Origin: Micromonospora sp. NBC_00421
GTDB lineage: Bacteria; Actinomycetota; Actinomycetes; Mycobacteriales; Micromonosporaceae
DNA: 64,000 nucleotides
Assembly (NCBI RefSeq): GCF_036017915.1
Contig: NZ_CP107929.1
Span: 5,150,001 to 5,214,000 of the forward strand
Direction: 5' to 3'
In this document: positions 14,029-64,000 of the stretch, in pieces
How the letters are laid out: every line of letters starts with the position of its first letter
How positions within the stretch are numbered: the first letter of the stretch is position 1
Made by a program: the position numbers and the translations under genes
Notes under the pieces: model-generated
Seen by the model: only the letters and a program-made list of their open reading frames with translations
What the model was told of the DNA's origin: nothing
Database searches by the model: none

Positions 14029-14856
14029 CTACAGTTCCTTCAGCACGGCCGGTTCGAGCCGGCGGAACGCCCACCAGCCGGCCACCAGCACCAGCAGGCT
14101 GCCGGCGATCGTGGTGGTCAGCAGCCGGGCGTCCGGGAACTCGTCCGGGTACCAGATGGCGTGCTGGAGCTGGAAGATGCCGACCAGCGGGTTCAGCTCG
14201 TACGCCACCTTCACCCAGGTCGGCATGCCGGACTCCCGGACCAGGCTCAACGGATAGATGATCGGGGTGGCATAGAAGAGCACCCGGATGACCAGCCGCA
14301 TGAACCGCTCCACGTCGCGCATCAGCACGTTCACCGCGGACAGCAGCAGGGCCAGCCCGACCAGCAGGGTGCCCTGCACGGCGACGGCCAGCGGCAGGCT
14401 CAGCAGCGACCAGCCCAGCTCGATCCGGCCGTGGGCGGCGTAGACGGCGGCGACGGCCAGCAGGATCGGCAGGCCGGCGACGTACTCGGCGAACCGGCCG
14501 GTGACCCGGCCGATCGGGAAGACCTGCCGGGGCACGTTCATCGTGGTGATCAGGCGGGACTGCCCGGTCAACGCGTTTGTCGCCTCGCTCAGTGCCGAAC
14601 TCGTCCACATCCAGGCGAAGATGCCGGTGATCAGGAAGAGCGGGTACGACCCGGCGGCCTCGCCGAGGTGCCGGTTGGTCGGCCCGGAATAGAGCACCCC
14701 GAAGACGAAGAAGTAGATCGCGCCCATCCCCAGCGGCTCGATCAGCGACCAGAAGTAACCGAGCACGGACTGCTGGTACTTCACCGCGAGATCGCGCCTG
14801 ACCAGGATGCGCAGCGAGTTGCGGTGCGACCACAACGCCGTGACGCCTGCGGTCAC
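14029..14856 (-). CDS. Polysaccharide/teichoic acid ABC exporter permease (TagG-like)
   Basis: A 275-residue ABC-2 permease with six predicted membrane helices. It shows the export-family N-terminus RRDLAVKYQQSVLGYFWSLI followed by EPLGMGAIYFFVFG, and the conserved LNPLVGIFQ near the C-terminus. GTG 14856 is chosen for the GGGAGG five bases upstream; the frame is open for 22 codons before it. It is the first gene of the wall-polymer operon (permease, ATPase, CDP-alcohol transferase, GT2-TagF). Confidence 0.92.
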   Translation of the reverse strand: MTAGVTALWSHRNSLRILVRRDLAVKYQQSVLGYFWSLIEPLGMGAIYFFVFGVLYSGPTNRHLGEAAGSYPLFLITGIFAWMWTSSALSEATNALTGQSRLITTMNVPRQVFPIGRVTGRFAEYVAGLPILLAVAAVYAAHGRIELGWSLLSLPLAVAVQGTLLVGLALLLSAVNVLMRDVERFMRLVIRVLFYATPIIYPLSLVRESGMPTWVKVAYELNPLVGIFQLQHAIWYPDEFPDARLLTTTIAGSLLVLVAGWWAFRRLEPAVLKEL

Positions 14857-14915
14857 CGTCGCCTCCCGCCTGACAACAACGGACGACAGGTTAGCAGTCG
14901 GTGAACGAACGCCCC

Positions 14916-16286
14916 TCAGCACTCGATCACGTTGACGGCCAGGCCGCCGCGTGCCGTCTCCTTGTACTTGACCTTCATGTCCGCCCCGGTCTCGCGCATG
15001 GTCTTGATGACCTTGTCGAGCGAGACGTGGTGCACCCCGTCGCCGCGCAGCGCCAACCGGGCCGCCGTGATCGCCTTGATGCTAGCCACCGCGTTGCGCT
15101 CGATGCAGGGGATCTGCACCAGCCCCCCGACCGGGTCGCAGGTCAACCCGAGGTTGTGCTCCATGCCGATCTCGGCGGCGTTCTCCACCTGCTCGGGGGT
15201 GCCACCCAACGCCTCGGCCAGCCCGGCGGCGGCCATCGAACAGGCCGACCCGACCTCGCCCTGACAGCCCACCTCCGCCCCGGAGATGGAGGCGTTCTCC
15301 TTGAACAGCACCCCGATCGCCCCGGCGGCCAGCAGGAACCGCACCACCCCCTCGTCGGAGGCGCCCGGCACGAACCGGGTGTAGTAGTGCAGCACCGCCG
15401 GGATGATCCCGGCCGCGCCGTTCGTCGGGGCGGTGACCACCCGGCCACCCGCCGCGTTCTCCTCGTTGACCGCCAGCGCGAACAGGGTCACCCAGTCCAT
15501 CGCGCGCAGCGGGTCGGTCGAGCCGGCGTCCGCCTCCAGGCTGCGGCGCAGCTCGGCGGCGCGACGACGGACCCGCAACCCACCCGGCAGTACGCCGTCC
15601 CGCTCGCCGCCGTGCGCCACGCACTCCCGCATCACCCGCCAGATGTCCAGCAGCCCCGCCCGCACGTCCGCCTCGCTGCGCCAGGACAGCTCGTTGGCGA
15701 GCATCACCGCGCTGATCGACAGGCCGGTGCCGGCGGTGACCTCCAGCAGCTCGGCACCTGTGGTGAACGGATGCCGGACCGGGGTGGCGTCCGGCCTGAT
15801 CCGGTCCGCCCCGGCCGCCGCCTCGTCCACCACGAACCCACCACCGACCGAGTAGTACGTCCGGGTGAGGACCTGCTCCCCCGCCGCGTCCCAGGCCGAG
15901 AAGACCATCCCGTTCGGGTGGTACGGCAACGACCGGCGGCGGTGCAGCACCAGATCCCGGTCCGGCTCGAAGTCGATCTCCTGGGTGCCGAGCAGGGCGA
16001 GCCGGCGCTGGGCACGGATCTCGGCGACCCGGGGCCCGACGCTGTCGGTGTCCACCGTCTCCGGGCTCTCCCCGGCCAGCCCGAGCAGCACCGCCCGGTC
16101 ACTGCCGTGGCCGTGGCCGGTCGCGCCCAGAGAACCGAACAGCTCGGCCCGGACCCGGGCGACGGTGTGCAGCAGCCCGTCGGCCTTCAGCCCGGTGACG
16201 AAGGTACGCCCGGCCCGCATCGGGCCCACCGTGTGCGAGCTGGACGGGCCGATGCCGACACTGAAGAGGTCGAAGACACTGATCAT
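14916..16286 (-). CDS. sdaA: L-serine ammonia-lyase (4Fe-4S)
   Basis: A 456-residue single-chain L-serine deaminase that converts L-serine to pyruvate and ammonia in the cytosol. The beta domain comes first: [20 protein letters not shown] with GPMRAG. The alpha domain holds the cluster cysteines: [16 protein letters not shown] (about 340-355) and [14 protein letters not shown] (about 383-396), plus the Cys in the C-terminal VIEC that serves as intrinsic ligand in the family. The length is normal. The ATG lies about 170 bp downstream of a heptanucleotide array. It is transcribed in the same direction as the wall operon but separated by 59 bp. Confidence 0.95.
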
Positions 16287-58483: not shown

Positions 58484-58599
58484 CCGGGGACATGGTGGCG
58501 GGCGACCGCCCACCCACGGCATCTATCCGGGTACCGTGTGCGCTGGCCACGGCACCGGGTCGCCGGGCCGGCCACCCACATCAGCAGGGAGTCGAGGAC

Positions 58600-59259
58600 G
58601 TGAGCGAGCGTACGGAGAACCGTCCGGCAGACCAGGGCGAGGGCCAGGGCCAGGGCCAGGAGACGAAGGCACAGCGGCGGCTCGCCGCCCAGTTGGCGGC
58701 GCAGAAGGCCGCCGAGGCGCGCAAGCGCCGGCAGGCGTGGCTGGGCGCCGTCGCCGGTGTGGCCGTCATCGCGGTGATCGTCGGGGTGTTCGTGGTGGTC
58801 CGCAACGGCGAGAAGGACGACCCGAAGCCGGCGGCGGCTCCGGTCGGCTGCGCGGGTGACTTCCCCAAGCTGCCCGAGGGTGCCGACCAGGCGCTGTGCA
58901 CCAAGCCCCAGGCGACCAAGGGCGAGGGCGAGCTGACCGGGCTGAAGGCCACCCCGCTGATCCGGGGCACCGGCCCGGCCGCCCAGGCCGGCCAGCAGAT
59001 CACCGTCAACTACGTCGGTGTGTCGTACAAGACCGGTGAGGAGTTCGACGCCTCCTGGAAGCGGTCCGAGCCGTTCAGCTTCGGCCTCGGCCAGGGCAAC
59101 GTCATCCCGGGTTGGGACCAGGGCATGCAGGGCCAGACCGTGGGCAGCCGGGTCCAGCTCGACATCCCCGCCGACCTGGCGTACGGCGACAAGCCGCAGC
59201 GTCCGGGAGCACCGGCCGGCCCGCTGCGGTTCATCGTCGACGTGCTGGCGGTGCAGTAG
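58600..59259 (+). CDS. Membrane-anchored FKBP-type peptidyl-prolyl isomerase
   Basis: A 219-residue protein: a Gln/Gly/Arg-rich cytoplasmic N-terminus, one membrane helix AWLGAVAGVAVIAVIVGVFV (about 46-65), and an extracytoplasmic FKBP domain (about 110-219) with QITVNYVGVSYKTGEEFDAS, FGLGQGNVIPGWDQGMQGQT and GSRVQLDIPADLAYGDK. It speeds proline isomerisation of exported proteins. GTG 58600 with GAGGA upstream. Confidence 0.92.
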   Translation: MSERTENRPADQGEGQGQGQETKAQRRLAAQLAAQKAAEARKRRQAWLGAVAGVAVIAVIVGVFVVVRNGEKDDPKPAAAPVGCAGDFPKLPEGADQALCTKPQATKGEGELTGLKATPLIRGTGPAAQAGQQITVNYVGVSYKTGEEFDASWKRSEPFSFGLGQGNVIPGWDQGMQGQTVGSRVQLDIPADLAYGDKPQRPGAPAGPLRFIVDVLAVQ

Positions 59260-59362: not shown

Positions 59363-60226
59363 GTGCCGGCGCTTGACGTTCCCGGGCAGACCGCCCGGCT
59401 GATGTGGACGTACGTCGAACCCCTGCACGCGATCACCTATTTCCATCCCCGGGTCCGCGCCGCCCACGAGGCGATCGGGTTGCGCGGTTACTGGCGGGGC
59501 TACTTCGCCGGCCGGGCCGCCCCGCTCGGCCCGGTCGACGCCGCCCCGGTGATCGCGGCCTTCTTCACCTTCGCCCCGTCGATGGTGAGCCGCGCGCTGC
59601 CTGCCGTGTGGCAGCTGGCCACCCCCGAGGAGGCGTTGCGCGCCCGGCTCACCGGGGCCGTGCAGGCGCTTGCCGAACTCACCTACGAACTACCCGAGGC
59701 GCACCTGGCCGAGGCGGCCGAGTTGCTGGAGGTGGCGGCCGTCGGGGCCGACACCGGCGGGCGGGTGCTCGGCGCGGCCAACGCCGCCCTGCCGCGCGGC
59801 GACTACCCGTTGGCCCGCCTCTGGCAGGCGGCCACCACGCTGCGCGAGCACCGGGGCGACGGGCACGTGGCCGCCCTGGTCGCCGCCGGTCTCGACCCGG
59901 TCGAGACGTTGGCCTTCCGGGTCGCGGTGGACCGGCCGGCGGAGCACCTGCTCGGCCGGGGCTGGACCCCGGAGCAGTGGGCCGGGGCCAGGGCCAGGCT
60001 GGTCGACCGGGGTTGGCTGACCGGCGACGGCGAGCCGACCGAGGCGGGGCACAGCGGTTTCCGGGCCGTCGAGGACGCCACCGACCGCGCCGCCACGCGC
60101 CCGTGGCAGGCCCTCGGCCCGGACCGCACCGATCGGCTCCGCGAACTGCTCGACCCGGTCGCCCGCGCCTGTCACACAGTCATCCCCCCGGACAACCCCG
60201 TCGGGCTGCCCGCCCTGCGTTCCTGA
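59363..60226 (+). CDS. SCO6745 family protein
   Basis: A 287-residue actinobacterial protein, PGQTARLMWTYVEPLHAITY with FHPRVRAAHEAIGLRGYWRG and an HTH-like C-terminal part (GWLTGDGEPTEAGHSGFRAV). It matches the SCO6745 family of unknown function. GTG 59363 with CGGAGG upstream. Its stop codon begins a nine-copy 17-bp tandem array. Confidence 0.85.
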   Translation: MPALDVPGQTARLMWTYVEPLHAITYFHPRVRAAHEAIGLRGYWRGYFAGRAAPLGPVDAAPVIAAFFTFAPSMVSRALPAVWQLATPEEALRARLTGAVQALAELTYELPEAHLAEAAELLEVAAVGADTGGRVLGAANAALPRGDYPLARLWQAATTLREHRGDGHVAALVAAGLDPVETLAFRVAVDRPAEHLLGRGWTPEQWAGARARLVDRGWLTGDGEPTEAGHSGFRAVEDATDRAATRPWQALGPDRTDRLRELLDPVARACHTVIPPDNPVGLPALRS

Positions 60227-60369
60227 CCACCCGGCGTTCCTGACCACCCGGCGTTCCTGACCACCCGGCGCTCCTGACCACCCGGCGCTCCTGACCACCC
60301 GGCGCTCCTGACCACCCGGCGCTCCTGACCACCCGGCGCTCCTGACCACCCGGCGCTCCTGACCACCCG
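60217..60369. repeat. 17-bp tandem array, nine copies, starting in the SCO6745-type gene's end
   Basis: GCGTTCCTGACCACCCG (later GCGCTCCTG and on) repeated exactly every 17 bp from 60217 to 60369. The TGA of the first copy (60224-60226) is the gene's stop; eight more TGA copies follow past the gene. Confidence 0.98.
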
Positions 60370-60493
60370 GGTCGCGGCCCGTCATCCGGTGGTGGCCGCC
60401 GAACCGGGCTGAGCGTTCAGCCGCACGGTGGGCTGGTCGACCGCTGCCGAACGCCATCGGATCGACCCGGTCGCCGCGGCCATCGACGCGATA

Positions 60494-60543
60494 TTGACAC
60501 ATCTATTAACCTCGGTAAGACTGCGGCGTCGGGAGCGCTCCCA
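60494..60543 (+). promoter_or_regulatory. Promoter with CebR/CelR-like operator upstream of the NRPS genes
   Basis: TTGACA (60494-60499) is followed 16 bp later by TAAGAC (60516-60521). The palindrome GGGAGCGCTCCC (60531-60542) with a following A fits the 14-bp CebR/CelR box TGGGAGCGCTCCCA at 13 of 14 positions. It lies just past the expected transcript start, a blocking position for a LacI-type repressor. The leader to the 595-aa gene is about 180 nt. The rest of 60370-60709 shows no gene. Confidence 0.65.
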
Positions 60544-60709
60544 CGTCGGGGTGGAATGTCGTCTCCTACCCGCCGTGGCACCGTCACGGACCCTCCACTT
60601 CCAGGTCGGCTGCCGGACGCCACGAGCCCCTCGACCACCGCGACGGTGGCCGTCGCGCGAGCCGGCTCCCGCGCACGCCGCGGCCTGCCCGGTCGCGAAA
60701 GGTAGGAAC

Positions 60710-62497
60710 GTGCGACGTACGAAGACCGACCAATGGAGCCAGGAACTACGCGACGTGCGCGACCCCGCAGAGCTGTTCGGCGGGAGCGCCCAGACGGCGG
60801 TTCTCCGCCTGCTCACCATGGCGGGCAAGGTGCCCTTCCGGTCCGCCTTCGACGGTCTGACCCTGCGCGAGCAGGCGATCGTCCGGCACCTGCTCGGCCG
60901 GCAGGAACTGCGGCTGACACCACCCGGGGTCGACGTGCCGCCCGCCCCGTTCGTGCTGTGCCACTCGGCGCTCGGCAAGCTGACCGTGCACGAACCGGCG
61001 CGGGGTGACCTGCCGACCGAGGAGGTCGTGGCCGAGCTCGCGCTGCCCGGGTGGCTGGTCGAGATGCTCGACGAGGAGTGCCTGGCGGCCGAGGCCGAGG
61101 AGGAGCACCAGCGCTACGAGTTCGATCACCTGCTGCACACCTGGCACGCCGACGGCAGCCTGGCCGAACGGCTGGAGGAGGTCATCGACTGGGTCGAGCG
61201 CGTCGAGACCGTCCTGGTCTACGTCCGGCGTCGGGTGTTCTCCCGTTCCGACTCCGGGTCCAGCACCCTCATCCGCGACGGCGTGCTGCCCGCGCTGCGC
61301 GGCCGTCCACCTGCCGACTGGAGCCCGGAGGAGCGGCTGTTCGTGGCCGCCATCCAGCTGCTGTTCCGCACCGGCCGGGCGGTCCGGTTCGAGGAGTTCA
61401 ACGGCCGCCAGCTCAGCGCCGTCGGCCTGCGGCGGGTGCTCACCACCCGCTGCGCCGCGTACCTGGGGGTGCTCGGTGAGCCGGTCACCGGGCAGCTCAG
61501 CACCGCGACCCTGACCGAGTTGGCCGCGCTCGCCGGTGACCTGGTCGAACGCGTCGACGGCGGCGGTCACATGCGGTACCGGCGGGTCAACGGGCTGACC
61601 TACGCCAAGGACGAGTACCTGCTGCCGTGGGCGCAGGAGCAGCGCGGTCACACCGAGCTGCCCCGGGAGCTGCCCGCCCTGACCGGCGCCCCGACCGGGC
61701 CGGACGACGGCGAGGACCCCGCCGCCTGGGTACGGCGTGCCACCGCCGCCGCACTGCGTACCGCGCACCGCAGCGGCGACGAGCACGACCTGACCCGGAT
61801 CCTGGAGGGCCTCGTGCTGGGCGCGGTCGTCGATGCCCGCGCCGACTACGGCATGTCCAGCGGCATCCGCGACCTGTCCCGACTGGACGGACCGGCCGGT
61901 CAGTACGGTGAGGAGGTGGCGGGCCTGAAGAAGCCGGACTTCTTCTGCTGCGTGCTGCCCAGCCCCGCGATGGCCGTCGACCTGCCCACCGACGCGGTCA
62001 CCGACATCCTGTGGCAGGTCGCGCAACGGATGATGTACAACCGTTGGCACTTCGTGCCGGGCAACTTCGACCGGGTCGAGGTGCCCCGCCAACGGCACTA
62101 CTTCTTCCCACCGCTGGTGCCCGACATCGGCGAGTGGGGCGACCTGCGCCACGGCGGCCACAGCACCGCCCGCGTCCGTTACACCCTGCGGGCGCCCGGC
62201 GCGGCGATGTGGAAGCAACCGCTCACCGTCTCCGGACGGCAGTACCGGGGCGCGTTCGACATCCGGCTGGTACGCATGGACGGACCACCGTTCACCCTGG
62301 ACGACCTGCGGATCGCCTGCCGGTACTCGGCGCTTGTGGACGTACTCTGGCGGGAGATCGCCGGCTACGCCGAAGCCCACGACGGCTGGACCCCGACGAT
62401 CACCGCGTTCGGCGGCGACTGGTATGCGAAGAGCGCCTGGCACGTGCCCGTCGAGCGGCTGACCGCGACCGCGCAGCCGGTCGGCGGGATGGCGTGA
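60710..62497 (+). CDS. Unrecognised 595-aa protein of the NRPS cluster
   Basis: No known family recognised. It is a soluble protein without signal or membrane helices: N-terminal [20 protein letters not shown] and an acidic stretch [20 protein letters not shown]; middle [21 protein letters not shown]-terminal Trp/Tyr-rich region [40 protein letters not shown] and [20 protein letters not shown]. It has no HHxxxDG, adenylation or P450 motif. GTG 60710 follows AGGA. Its stop overlaps the MbtH-NRPS start (GTGA), so it is coupled to it. It could be a tailoring or scaffolding component; the role is unknown. Confidence 0.85.
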
Positions 62498-64000
62498 GCC
62501 CCCGCCCGCTCCACGTCGTCGTCAACGACGAGGACCAGTACTCGGTGTGGCCGACCGACCGGGCCCTGCCGGGCGGCTGGACGACGGTGTTCACCGGGGC
62601 GGTCGAGGCGTGTCTGGCGCACATCGCCGCGCACTGGACCGACCTGCGGCCCGCCTCACTGCGTACCACCGCGGGCGTTCCCGGCCGGGCCGTCACGGCG
62701 GCGCCGGCCACGGTGGACGCGGTGCGGTCGGTCGCCACCGGCCCGCGCCGCTCCTTCGGCCAGGCACCGTTGCACGTCCTCGTCGACCGGGCGCTGGCGG
62801 CCGATCCCGGGCGCGTCGCGGTGCGCTGTGCGGGGGCCGAGGTCACCGCGGGCGACCTGCTGACCCGGGTCCGGCACACCGCGCGGGTGCTGCGGGCGCA
62901 CGGTGCGGGGCCGGAGACGCCGGTCGCGGTGCTGCTGCCCCGGTCGGTGGACGCGGTGGTGGCGATCCTCGCGGTGCTGGCGGCCGGGTCGGCGTACCTG
63001 CCGCTGTCCGTCCAGGATCCGGCGGACCGGCGGGCCCGGATCCTTGCGGACGCGGGCGACCCGGTGCTGCTGGTCGGACCGGGGCAGCGAGGGCTGGTGC
63101 CCGCCGGCTACCCGGCGGCCGTACTCGACGTGACGGACCTGCCCGACCGGCTCGGCGACGACGGCGACGGCGACGGCGGCTGCCGGGTGGAGAACCTGGC
63201 GTTCGTCATGTACACCTCGGGCACCAGCGGGGCACCCAAGGGGGTGCTCGGCACCCACCGGCAACTGGTCAACTACGTGCACTGGTGCGCCGAGGAGTTC
63301 GCCTTCCAGCCGCAGGAGCGGGCCGTGCTGCACGCCCCGCTCTATTTCGTCGGCTCGGTGATGACGCTGTTCACCGCCCTGGTCGCGGGCTGGGAGCTGG
63401 AGGTCGCACCGGAGCCGGTCGCCTTCGACGACCTGATCGCGCTGACCGCCGCCGCGCCGTGCGGCTTCCTGAAGCTCACCCCGTCGCACGTGCGGGCGAT
63501 GACCGCCCTGGGCGGGGTGGACGACGTCGCCCGTCAGGTCATGATCGGCAGCGAGCCGCTGTACCTGACCCCCGAGTTCGACAGGTGGATCAGCAACAGC
63601 CCGAAGTCCGGTTTCGGCAACCACTACGGCATGAGCGAGACCGTCGGCGCCACCTGGTACTGGATCGGCACGGACCGTACGGTCGGTCGGCGGTTGCCGG
63701 TCGGCGCACCCATCCCCAACGCCGAGGTGCACATCCTCGACGAGGAGGGCCAGCCCGTGCCGCTCGGCGAGACCGGCGAGATCTGCCTGGGCGGGGCCGT
63801 CGTCGGCCGTGGCTACCACGGCCAGCCGGTGTTGACCGCCCAGCGGTGGATCCCGCACCCGGCGGGCGGTGGGGCACGCCTGCTGCGCACCGGGGACCTC
63901 GGCCGGTTGGGACCGGACGGGGTGCTCGACGTGCTCGGCCGCGCCGACCGGCAGGTGAAGATCCGTGGTCAGCGCGTCGAACCGCCAGCCGTCGAGGACG
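62494..64000 (+). CDS. MbtH-like domain fused to an NRPS adenylation domain (partial)
   Basis: An open frame to the window end (502 residues so far). The N-terminal MbtH domain (about 1-65) has [45 protein letters not shown], all family landmarks. The adenylation domain follows (about 85 on): A3 [20 protein letters not shown]5 [11 protein letters not shown]7-A8 [20 protein letters not shown] with [15 protein letters not shown]. Around A4, [15 protein letters not shown] has Val where the amine-binding Asp is usual, and Gly next, so a substrate without a free alpha-amine is possible. GTG 62494 is coupled to the gene before. Confidence 0.93.

Follow-up and report, generated by a model that had tools for sequence, protein, structure and literature searches.

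A candidate CebR operator at the predicted start of a five-gene NRPS operon conserved in Micromonospora and Catellatospora

Close to the end of the window, as the whole stretch of 64,000 nucleotides that was analysed is called here, lie a candidate promoter, a 14-base palindrome, a leader and the first genes of a five-gene operon, which together with its counterparts in other genomes is referred to as a cassette. The features of this region are the following:

60494..60499, + strand: -35 element TTGACA, read from the sequence
60517..60522, + strand: weak candidate -10 element AAGACT (3/6 to TATAAT), placed by eye with a 17-base spacer
60530..60543, + strand: candidate CebR/CelR operator CGGGAGCGCTCCCA, one mismatch to the consensus, predicted to span about +1 to +14
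60601..60615, + strand: second conserved block of the leader, around AGGTCGGCTGCC, in which 12 of 15 columns do not vary among 10 cassettes
60710..62497, + strand: gene A, the operon's first gene, an ORF for a 595-aa protein of unknown function with no Pfam or NCBIfam match
62494..64000, + strand: start of the NRPS gene (MbtH-A-T-C, 1150 aa; L044:4495-7944), which would end at window position 65946

Gene A is followed by the NRPS gene, which overlaps it by 4 bases and crosses the window end, and then, beyond the window, by the genes of a 324-aa sulfotransferase-like protein and of two ABC exporters. The sequence-only reading had placed the promoter in front of an NRPS cluster. An NRPS gene indeed belongs to the operon, but the gene that adjoins the promoter codes for the 595-aa protein and not for the NRPS. 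Neither gene A nor the sulfotransferase-like gene had a Pfam or NCBIfam match above cut-off, and no regulator was recognised by Pfam or NCBIfam among the five cassette genes. Some of the 92 homologues of the 324-aa protein carry the name sulfotransferase. The 88 homologues of gene A (a family at least that large) include none with a listed Pfam domain. Its predicted structure is confident (pLDDT 89.8) and gave no clear fold match, with only partial GAF-like structural matches in the C-terminal half.

The NRPS contains the domains PF00501, PF00550 and PF00668 in addition to MbtH (PF03621; all at L044:4495-7944). The NRPS carries the MbtH domain as an N-terminal fusion. An adenylation motif, FVGSVMTLF, is present in the window copy and in six of seven further NRPS copies, the motif search having given no match in the seventh, and the condensation motif of the window copy was read by eye as SHVALDG. 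In adenylation domains for alpha-amino acids, the second position of this motif is Asp (the Asp235 rule). Since Val stands at this position in the NRPS of the operon, its substrate, as judged from the motif, is probably something other than an ordinary amino acid.

The palindrome CGGGAGCGCTCCCA is identical to the CebR/CelR consensus TGGGAGCGCTCCCA at 13 of 14 positions, as had been claimed at first sight, and the sole difference is a C in place of T1. It is the only site in the window with at most one mismatch. The remaining six matches have three mismatches each, and the total of seven at up to three mismatches is an ordinary number for a sequence of this kind (shuffle mean 8.06). In the complete 7,231,838-base (7.23-Mb) genome, 14 sites were found at up to one mismatch, as opposed to none for the reversed control. 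When two mismatches were allowed, control and signal were equal (44 vs 43), and the cut-off was therefore set at one mismatch; sites with two mismatches, being mostly noise, were rejected as evidence in the host genome. Eleven of the 13 other sites sit at nine cellulose or plant-polymer genes of the host:

894095: GH1 gene
894567 and 894677: GH48 gene
1074234: GH5 gene
3505903: GH9 gene
3891414: GH9 gene
3903252 and 3903305: binding protein gene of the importer operon
4568544: GH12 gene
6689151: GH62 gene
7090228: GH6 gene

A CBM2 domain is present in seven of the nine proteins linked to these boxes, and the C1 variant seen at 60530-60543 recurs at cellulose-linked sites of the same genome, for example at 894095 and 3891414. 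Genome-wide scanning for the 14-mer, as proposed by the sequence-only reading, hence revealed boxes that mark cellulases and a cellobiose-importer-like operon. ORF starts were called mechanically for several of the genes, and some boxes lie inside the longest ORF.

Two of the 13 other sites, 7122023 and 5268878, are without a cellulose gene, so that a lone box in one genome is weak evidence. Single-genome statistics were rejected as sole proof, the case being carried by the cross-species footprint described below. The site at 7122023 (L056:9024) has the variant TGGGTGCGCTCCCA and belongs to an operon with genes for a binding protein, a LacI protein and a protein of the alpha-amylase family; this box is probably read by the LacI protein of its own operon. 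At 5268878 (L053:6879), TGGGAGCGCTTCCA is accompanied by an adjoining imperfect second copy and is flanked by a DEAD/DEAH helicase gene on one side and a small ORF on the other.

Matches to gene A were found in 22 of 160 genomes of Micromonospora, the genus of the host, eight of them at 83% identity or more (host included). A family search raised the number to 31 of 354 genomes and added two matches at 81-82% and one at 68%. In a named scan, 14 gene A loci were obtained, six of which, at 81-88%, belong to M. antibiotica (G004), M. wenchangensis (G155), M. echinofusca (G032), M. matsumotoense (G060), Catellatospora sp. KI3 (G250) and C. methionotrophica (G245). A class-wide sample of 394 genomes contained two matches at E<=1e-100, both among the known cassettes, and the eight matches on plasmids all had less than 60% identity and in no case covered more than 80% of the query. 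The cassette also has relatives in Streptomyces sp. NPDC007863, Kitasatospora sp. NBC_00315 and Sphaerimonospora sp. CA-214678, where gene A is 54-56% identical.

The order and strand of the five genes are equal in all 11 cassettes, the last gene of M. echinofusca being cut by the contig end. The cassette is located beside an FKBP gene (58492-59259 in the window) and a gene for a 273-aa protein (59404-60226) in five genomes; in the other six, neither of these genes turned up within the 8-13.5 kb of sequence read upstream. Since the flanks differ in 6 of 11 genomes, the box has been kept with the operon at more than one genomic place. It is present in all ten cassettes with a gene A at least 80% identical (eight in Micromonospora and two in Catellatospora), about 170-200 bases before gene A, in the versions CGGGAGCGCTCCCA (seven cassettes), GGGGAGCGCTCCCA (one) and CGGGAGCGTTCCCA (two). 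The last of these has two mismatches to the consensus, and the same change at its centre occurs in both boxes at the binding-protein gene of the host importer. The eleventh cassette (G234, gene A 68% identical) has a degenerate site, TGGGAGCGCTCTCC, behind TTGACA. At distant gene A loci the box was found in none of eight named loci (up to three mismatches) and none of 21 others (up to two mismatches), two sets that overlap by at least one locus and the second of which includes several short partial matches. Absence of the box from related clusters had been named beforehand as a finding that would speak against an operator; it is kept in the ten close cassettes and not at the distant loci. Box counts in the ten relatives were 13-36, compared with 0-3 for the control.

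Alignment of promoter and leader from the ten cassettes gave 318 columns, of which 77 are invariant. Twelve of the 14 box positions are among these, and no column before 60490 is. The best contiguous stretch of 15 columns contains 13 invariant ones, a number reached in four of 20,000 column shuffles (14 in none), which is a guide only, as the procedure assumes independent columns and ignores the species tree. TTGAC is present in all ten cassettes, at a spacing of 36-38 bases to GGGAGCG in each of them, and the sixth base of the -35 element is G in one (G156). A60520 and C60521 of the candidate -10 element are invariant too. Because all these relatives belong to one family, the footprint shows constraint and not which protein reads the box.

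In the host, the box starts 36 bases past the first base of TTGACA. At three of the 13 other sites, TTGACA or TTGACT precedes GGGAGCG by 32, 34 and 41 bases, as counted by eye. A -10 element at a 17-base spacer would put the start of transcription near 60529-60530, with the palindrome spanning approximately +1 to +14. The description of the promoter as a good one holds for its perfect TTGACA, but not for the weak AAGACT, and a strict promoter scan reported no promoter here.

A leader of 166 bases separates the box from gene A. No small ORF common to the cassettes was found when reading frames were compared by eye, comparison with Rfam gave no match up to E=1, and covariation in the leader RNA is weak, with two-sided changes in 5 of 36 predicted pairs (nine of the ten cassettes used). 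An explanation of the leader as a small ORF or a known RNA was rejected on these grounds. The second conserved block may be a sign of further control. It is accordingly possible, if rather unlikely, that CebR is one of two inputs, with 60601-60615 serving as a second control element and cellobiose alone being insufficient. The invariance of 12 of the 15 columns in a leader that has no shared small ORF argues for such an element, while the missing match to a known RNA family, the weak covariation and the lack of a recognised regulator gene among the five cassette genes argue against it. Two inputs would be compatible with the box being a CebR operator.

A CelR-like LacI gene is located at approximately G000:C1:3897331-3898600 (L050:11329-12597, - strand), so that the genome does possess the cebR-type gene whose absence would have told against the sequence-only reading. 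It is the last gene of a cebE-like importer/beta-glucosidase operon (L050 17247-11329, - strand). This operon runs from a binding-protein gene through a gene that stands where a permease would be expected (14751-15719), a permease gene and a GH1 gene to the LacI regulator gene, and is preceded by two boxes. The best solved relative of the regulator is 5ysz (397.9 bits; next 155), which we take to be Thermobifida fusca CelR. An orthologue of this CebR (at least 70% identical) is encoded in all 11 cassette genomes, and the first 60 N-terminal residues, which comprise the DNA-binding region, are identical in the eight Micromonospora.

The genome contains 29 LacI HTH matches. The closest paralogue of CebR, at G000:C1:6422473-6423459, matches the CebR query at 57% identity and has a different recognition helix (GVSRATVSRV vs GVGRGTVSRV in CebR). 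It was recognised by homology in a second operon (G000:C1:6414000-6433000; L117), together with GH1 and importer-like genes assigned by position and a look at the sequence. This operon carries the operator-like sequence AGAGAGCGCTCTCA, which is unlike the CebR box, and a search for the box at up to three mismatches yielded only AGAGAGCGCTCTCA and CCGGAGCGCTCCGA, both with three. The number of LacI-type proteins, the similarity of the paralogue to CebR and the box at 7122023, whose operon contains a LacI gene and a gene of the alpha-amylase family, would all be consistent with a LacI-family operator that is read by another LacI-type protein, most likely this paralogue, and maybe in response to a different sugar. 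Such a reader is nevertheless improbable given the divergent recognition helix, the three mismatches of the only candidate sites at the paralogue's GH1/importer-like operon, and the concentration of boxes with up to one mismatch on cellulose genes and the CebR operon.

The boxes in the regulon-wide set, the cebE-like operon, the conservation in relatives, the orthologues and the different site of the paralogue favour a real CebR operator. On the strength of these comparisons, the palindrome very probably is a CebR (CelR) operator that gates the five-gene operon via cello-oligosaccharides. It is highly improbable that the palindrome has been kept with no repressor involved, whether as a short hairpin at the mRNA 5' end or through chance combined with common descent. 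A stem of 4 bp with a loop of 4 bases can be drawn by eye at the predicted 5' end, and the C-to-T change of two relatives would fall in the loop. Against this, such a reading would not account for the recurrence of the 14-mer at nine cellulose or plant-polymer genes or for the 14 sites against 0 in the control, asymmetric variants among the cellulase sites, such as TGGAAGCGCTCCCA, break the stem, and the flanks diverge, with no invariant column before 60490.

For a CebR operator at this place, the binding, the direction of control, the inducer and the product are what we infer. When cello-oligosaccharides are lacking, CebR bound across approximately +1 to +14 would block transcription of the five genes. 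Once imported, cellobiose or cellotriose would free the operator from CebR, and it is proposed that the NRPS, the sulfotransferase-like protein and the exporters would then be made alongside the cellulases. The compound of the host would thus probably be made when sugars from plant cellulose are sensed. Going further, the cassette, with its own CebR operator at +1, could plug into the repressor of its host in place of a pathway regulator and, only while plant cell walls are being degraded, provide an exported, probably sulfated compound built on a non-standard adenylated acid, a conjecture on which we are evenly divided.

Release of a repressor by cello-oligosaccharides is the regulon logic set out in the relevant passages of PMC4898821, PMC5332605 and PMC3377646. 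The 14-mer and the kinds of target elsewhere in the host genome resemble the CelR/CebR regulon of T. fusca and Streptomyces, and in T. fusca, according to PMC3377646, the regulator gene likewise closes an importer/beta-glucosidase operon. Where that cellulase regulon has polysaccharide-use genes as its targets, the box described here stands at a natural-product operon. For this type of target the literature provided one case of direct CebR control, thaxtomin, and a search by title, with subscription papers largely outside it, did not find CebR control of a Micromonospora cluster. In S. scabiei, cGGGAGCGCTCCCA is given for txtA (-899) and txtR (-786) and gGGGAGCGCTCCCA for txtB (+1507) in a table of PMC5332605, a paper in which imperfect boxes are also reported as more weakly bound. 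No binding ranking of C1 boxes is drawn for the host, because C1 boxes are also found at its cellulose genes.

As described in passages of PMC8914351, cello-oligosaccharides affect 16 clusters of S. scabiei, thaxtomin alone being presented there as directly CebR-controlled, and three cryptic clusters without predicted sites are also up in a cebR mutant; induction of the rotihibin cluster is independent of cebR in the corresponding passage of PMC8552735. The thaxtomin system, as far as these passages portray it, is similar to the operon in the involvement of the CebR family, the C1 box variant at txtA and txtR and an NRPS product under a cellulose repressor. It differs in that the boxes listed for it are located far upstream or inside a gene, whereas the box described here overlaps the predicted start of the biosynthetic operon itself, and in its route via the activator TxtR, for which no counterpart was recognised among the five genes. 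The gene make-up, with a single-module MbtH-A-T-C NRPS, gene A, a sulfotransferase-like gene and two ABC exporters, is also unlike that of txt. In A. mirum, a CelR site within the polyketide synthase gene Amir_4019 was put forward in 2012 as a possible link to secondary metabolism (PMC3377646, in the passage on this site). That site is intragenic and was offered as a possibility, whereas the one described here lies at a predicted promoter and is conserved across species.

Regulator and box are known; what is new here, at the level of sequence, is a different operon and the direct placement at its predicted promoter. If CebR control is true, the operon would become the second directly CebR-controlled natural-product system, one that lies outside Streptomyces and shows no sign here of a connection with plant disease, and one operator would suffice to tie a biosynthetic operon to nutrient sensing. 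Cellobiose or cellulose would be the predicted inducer of an uncharacterised cluster in at least ten species, and why the compound accompanies cellulose degradation would become a directly testable question.

Just upstream of the operon promoter, positions 60213-60370 are occupied by a tandem array of 9.3 copies of the 17-base unit CCCGGCGCTCCTGACCA, with 98% matches.
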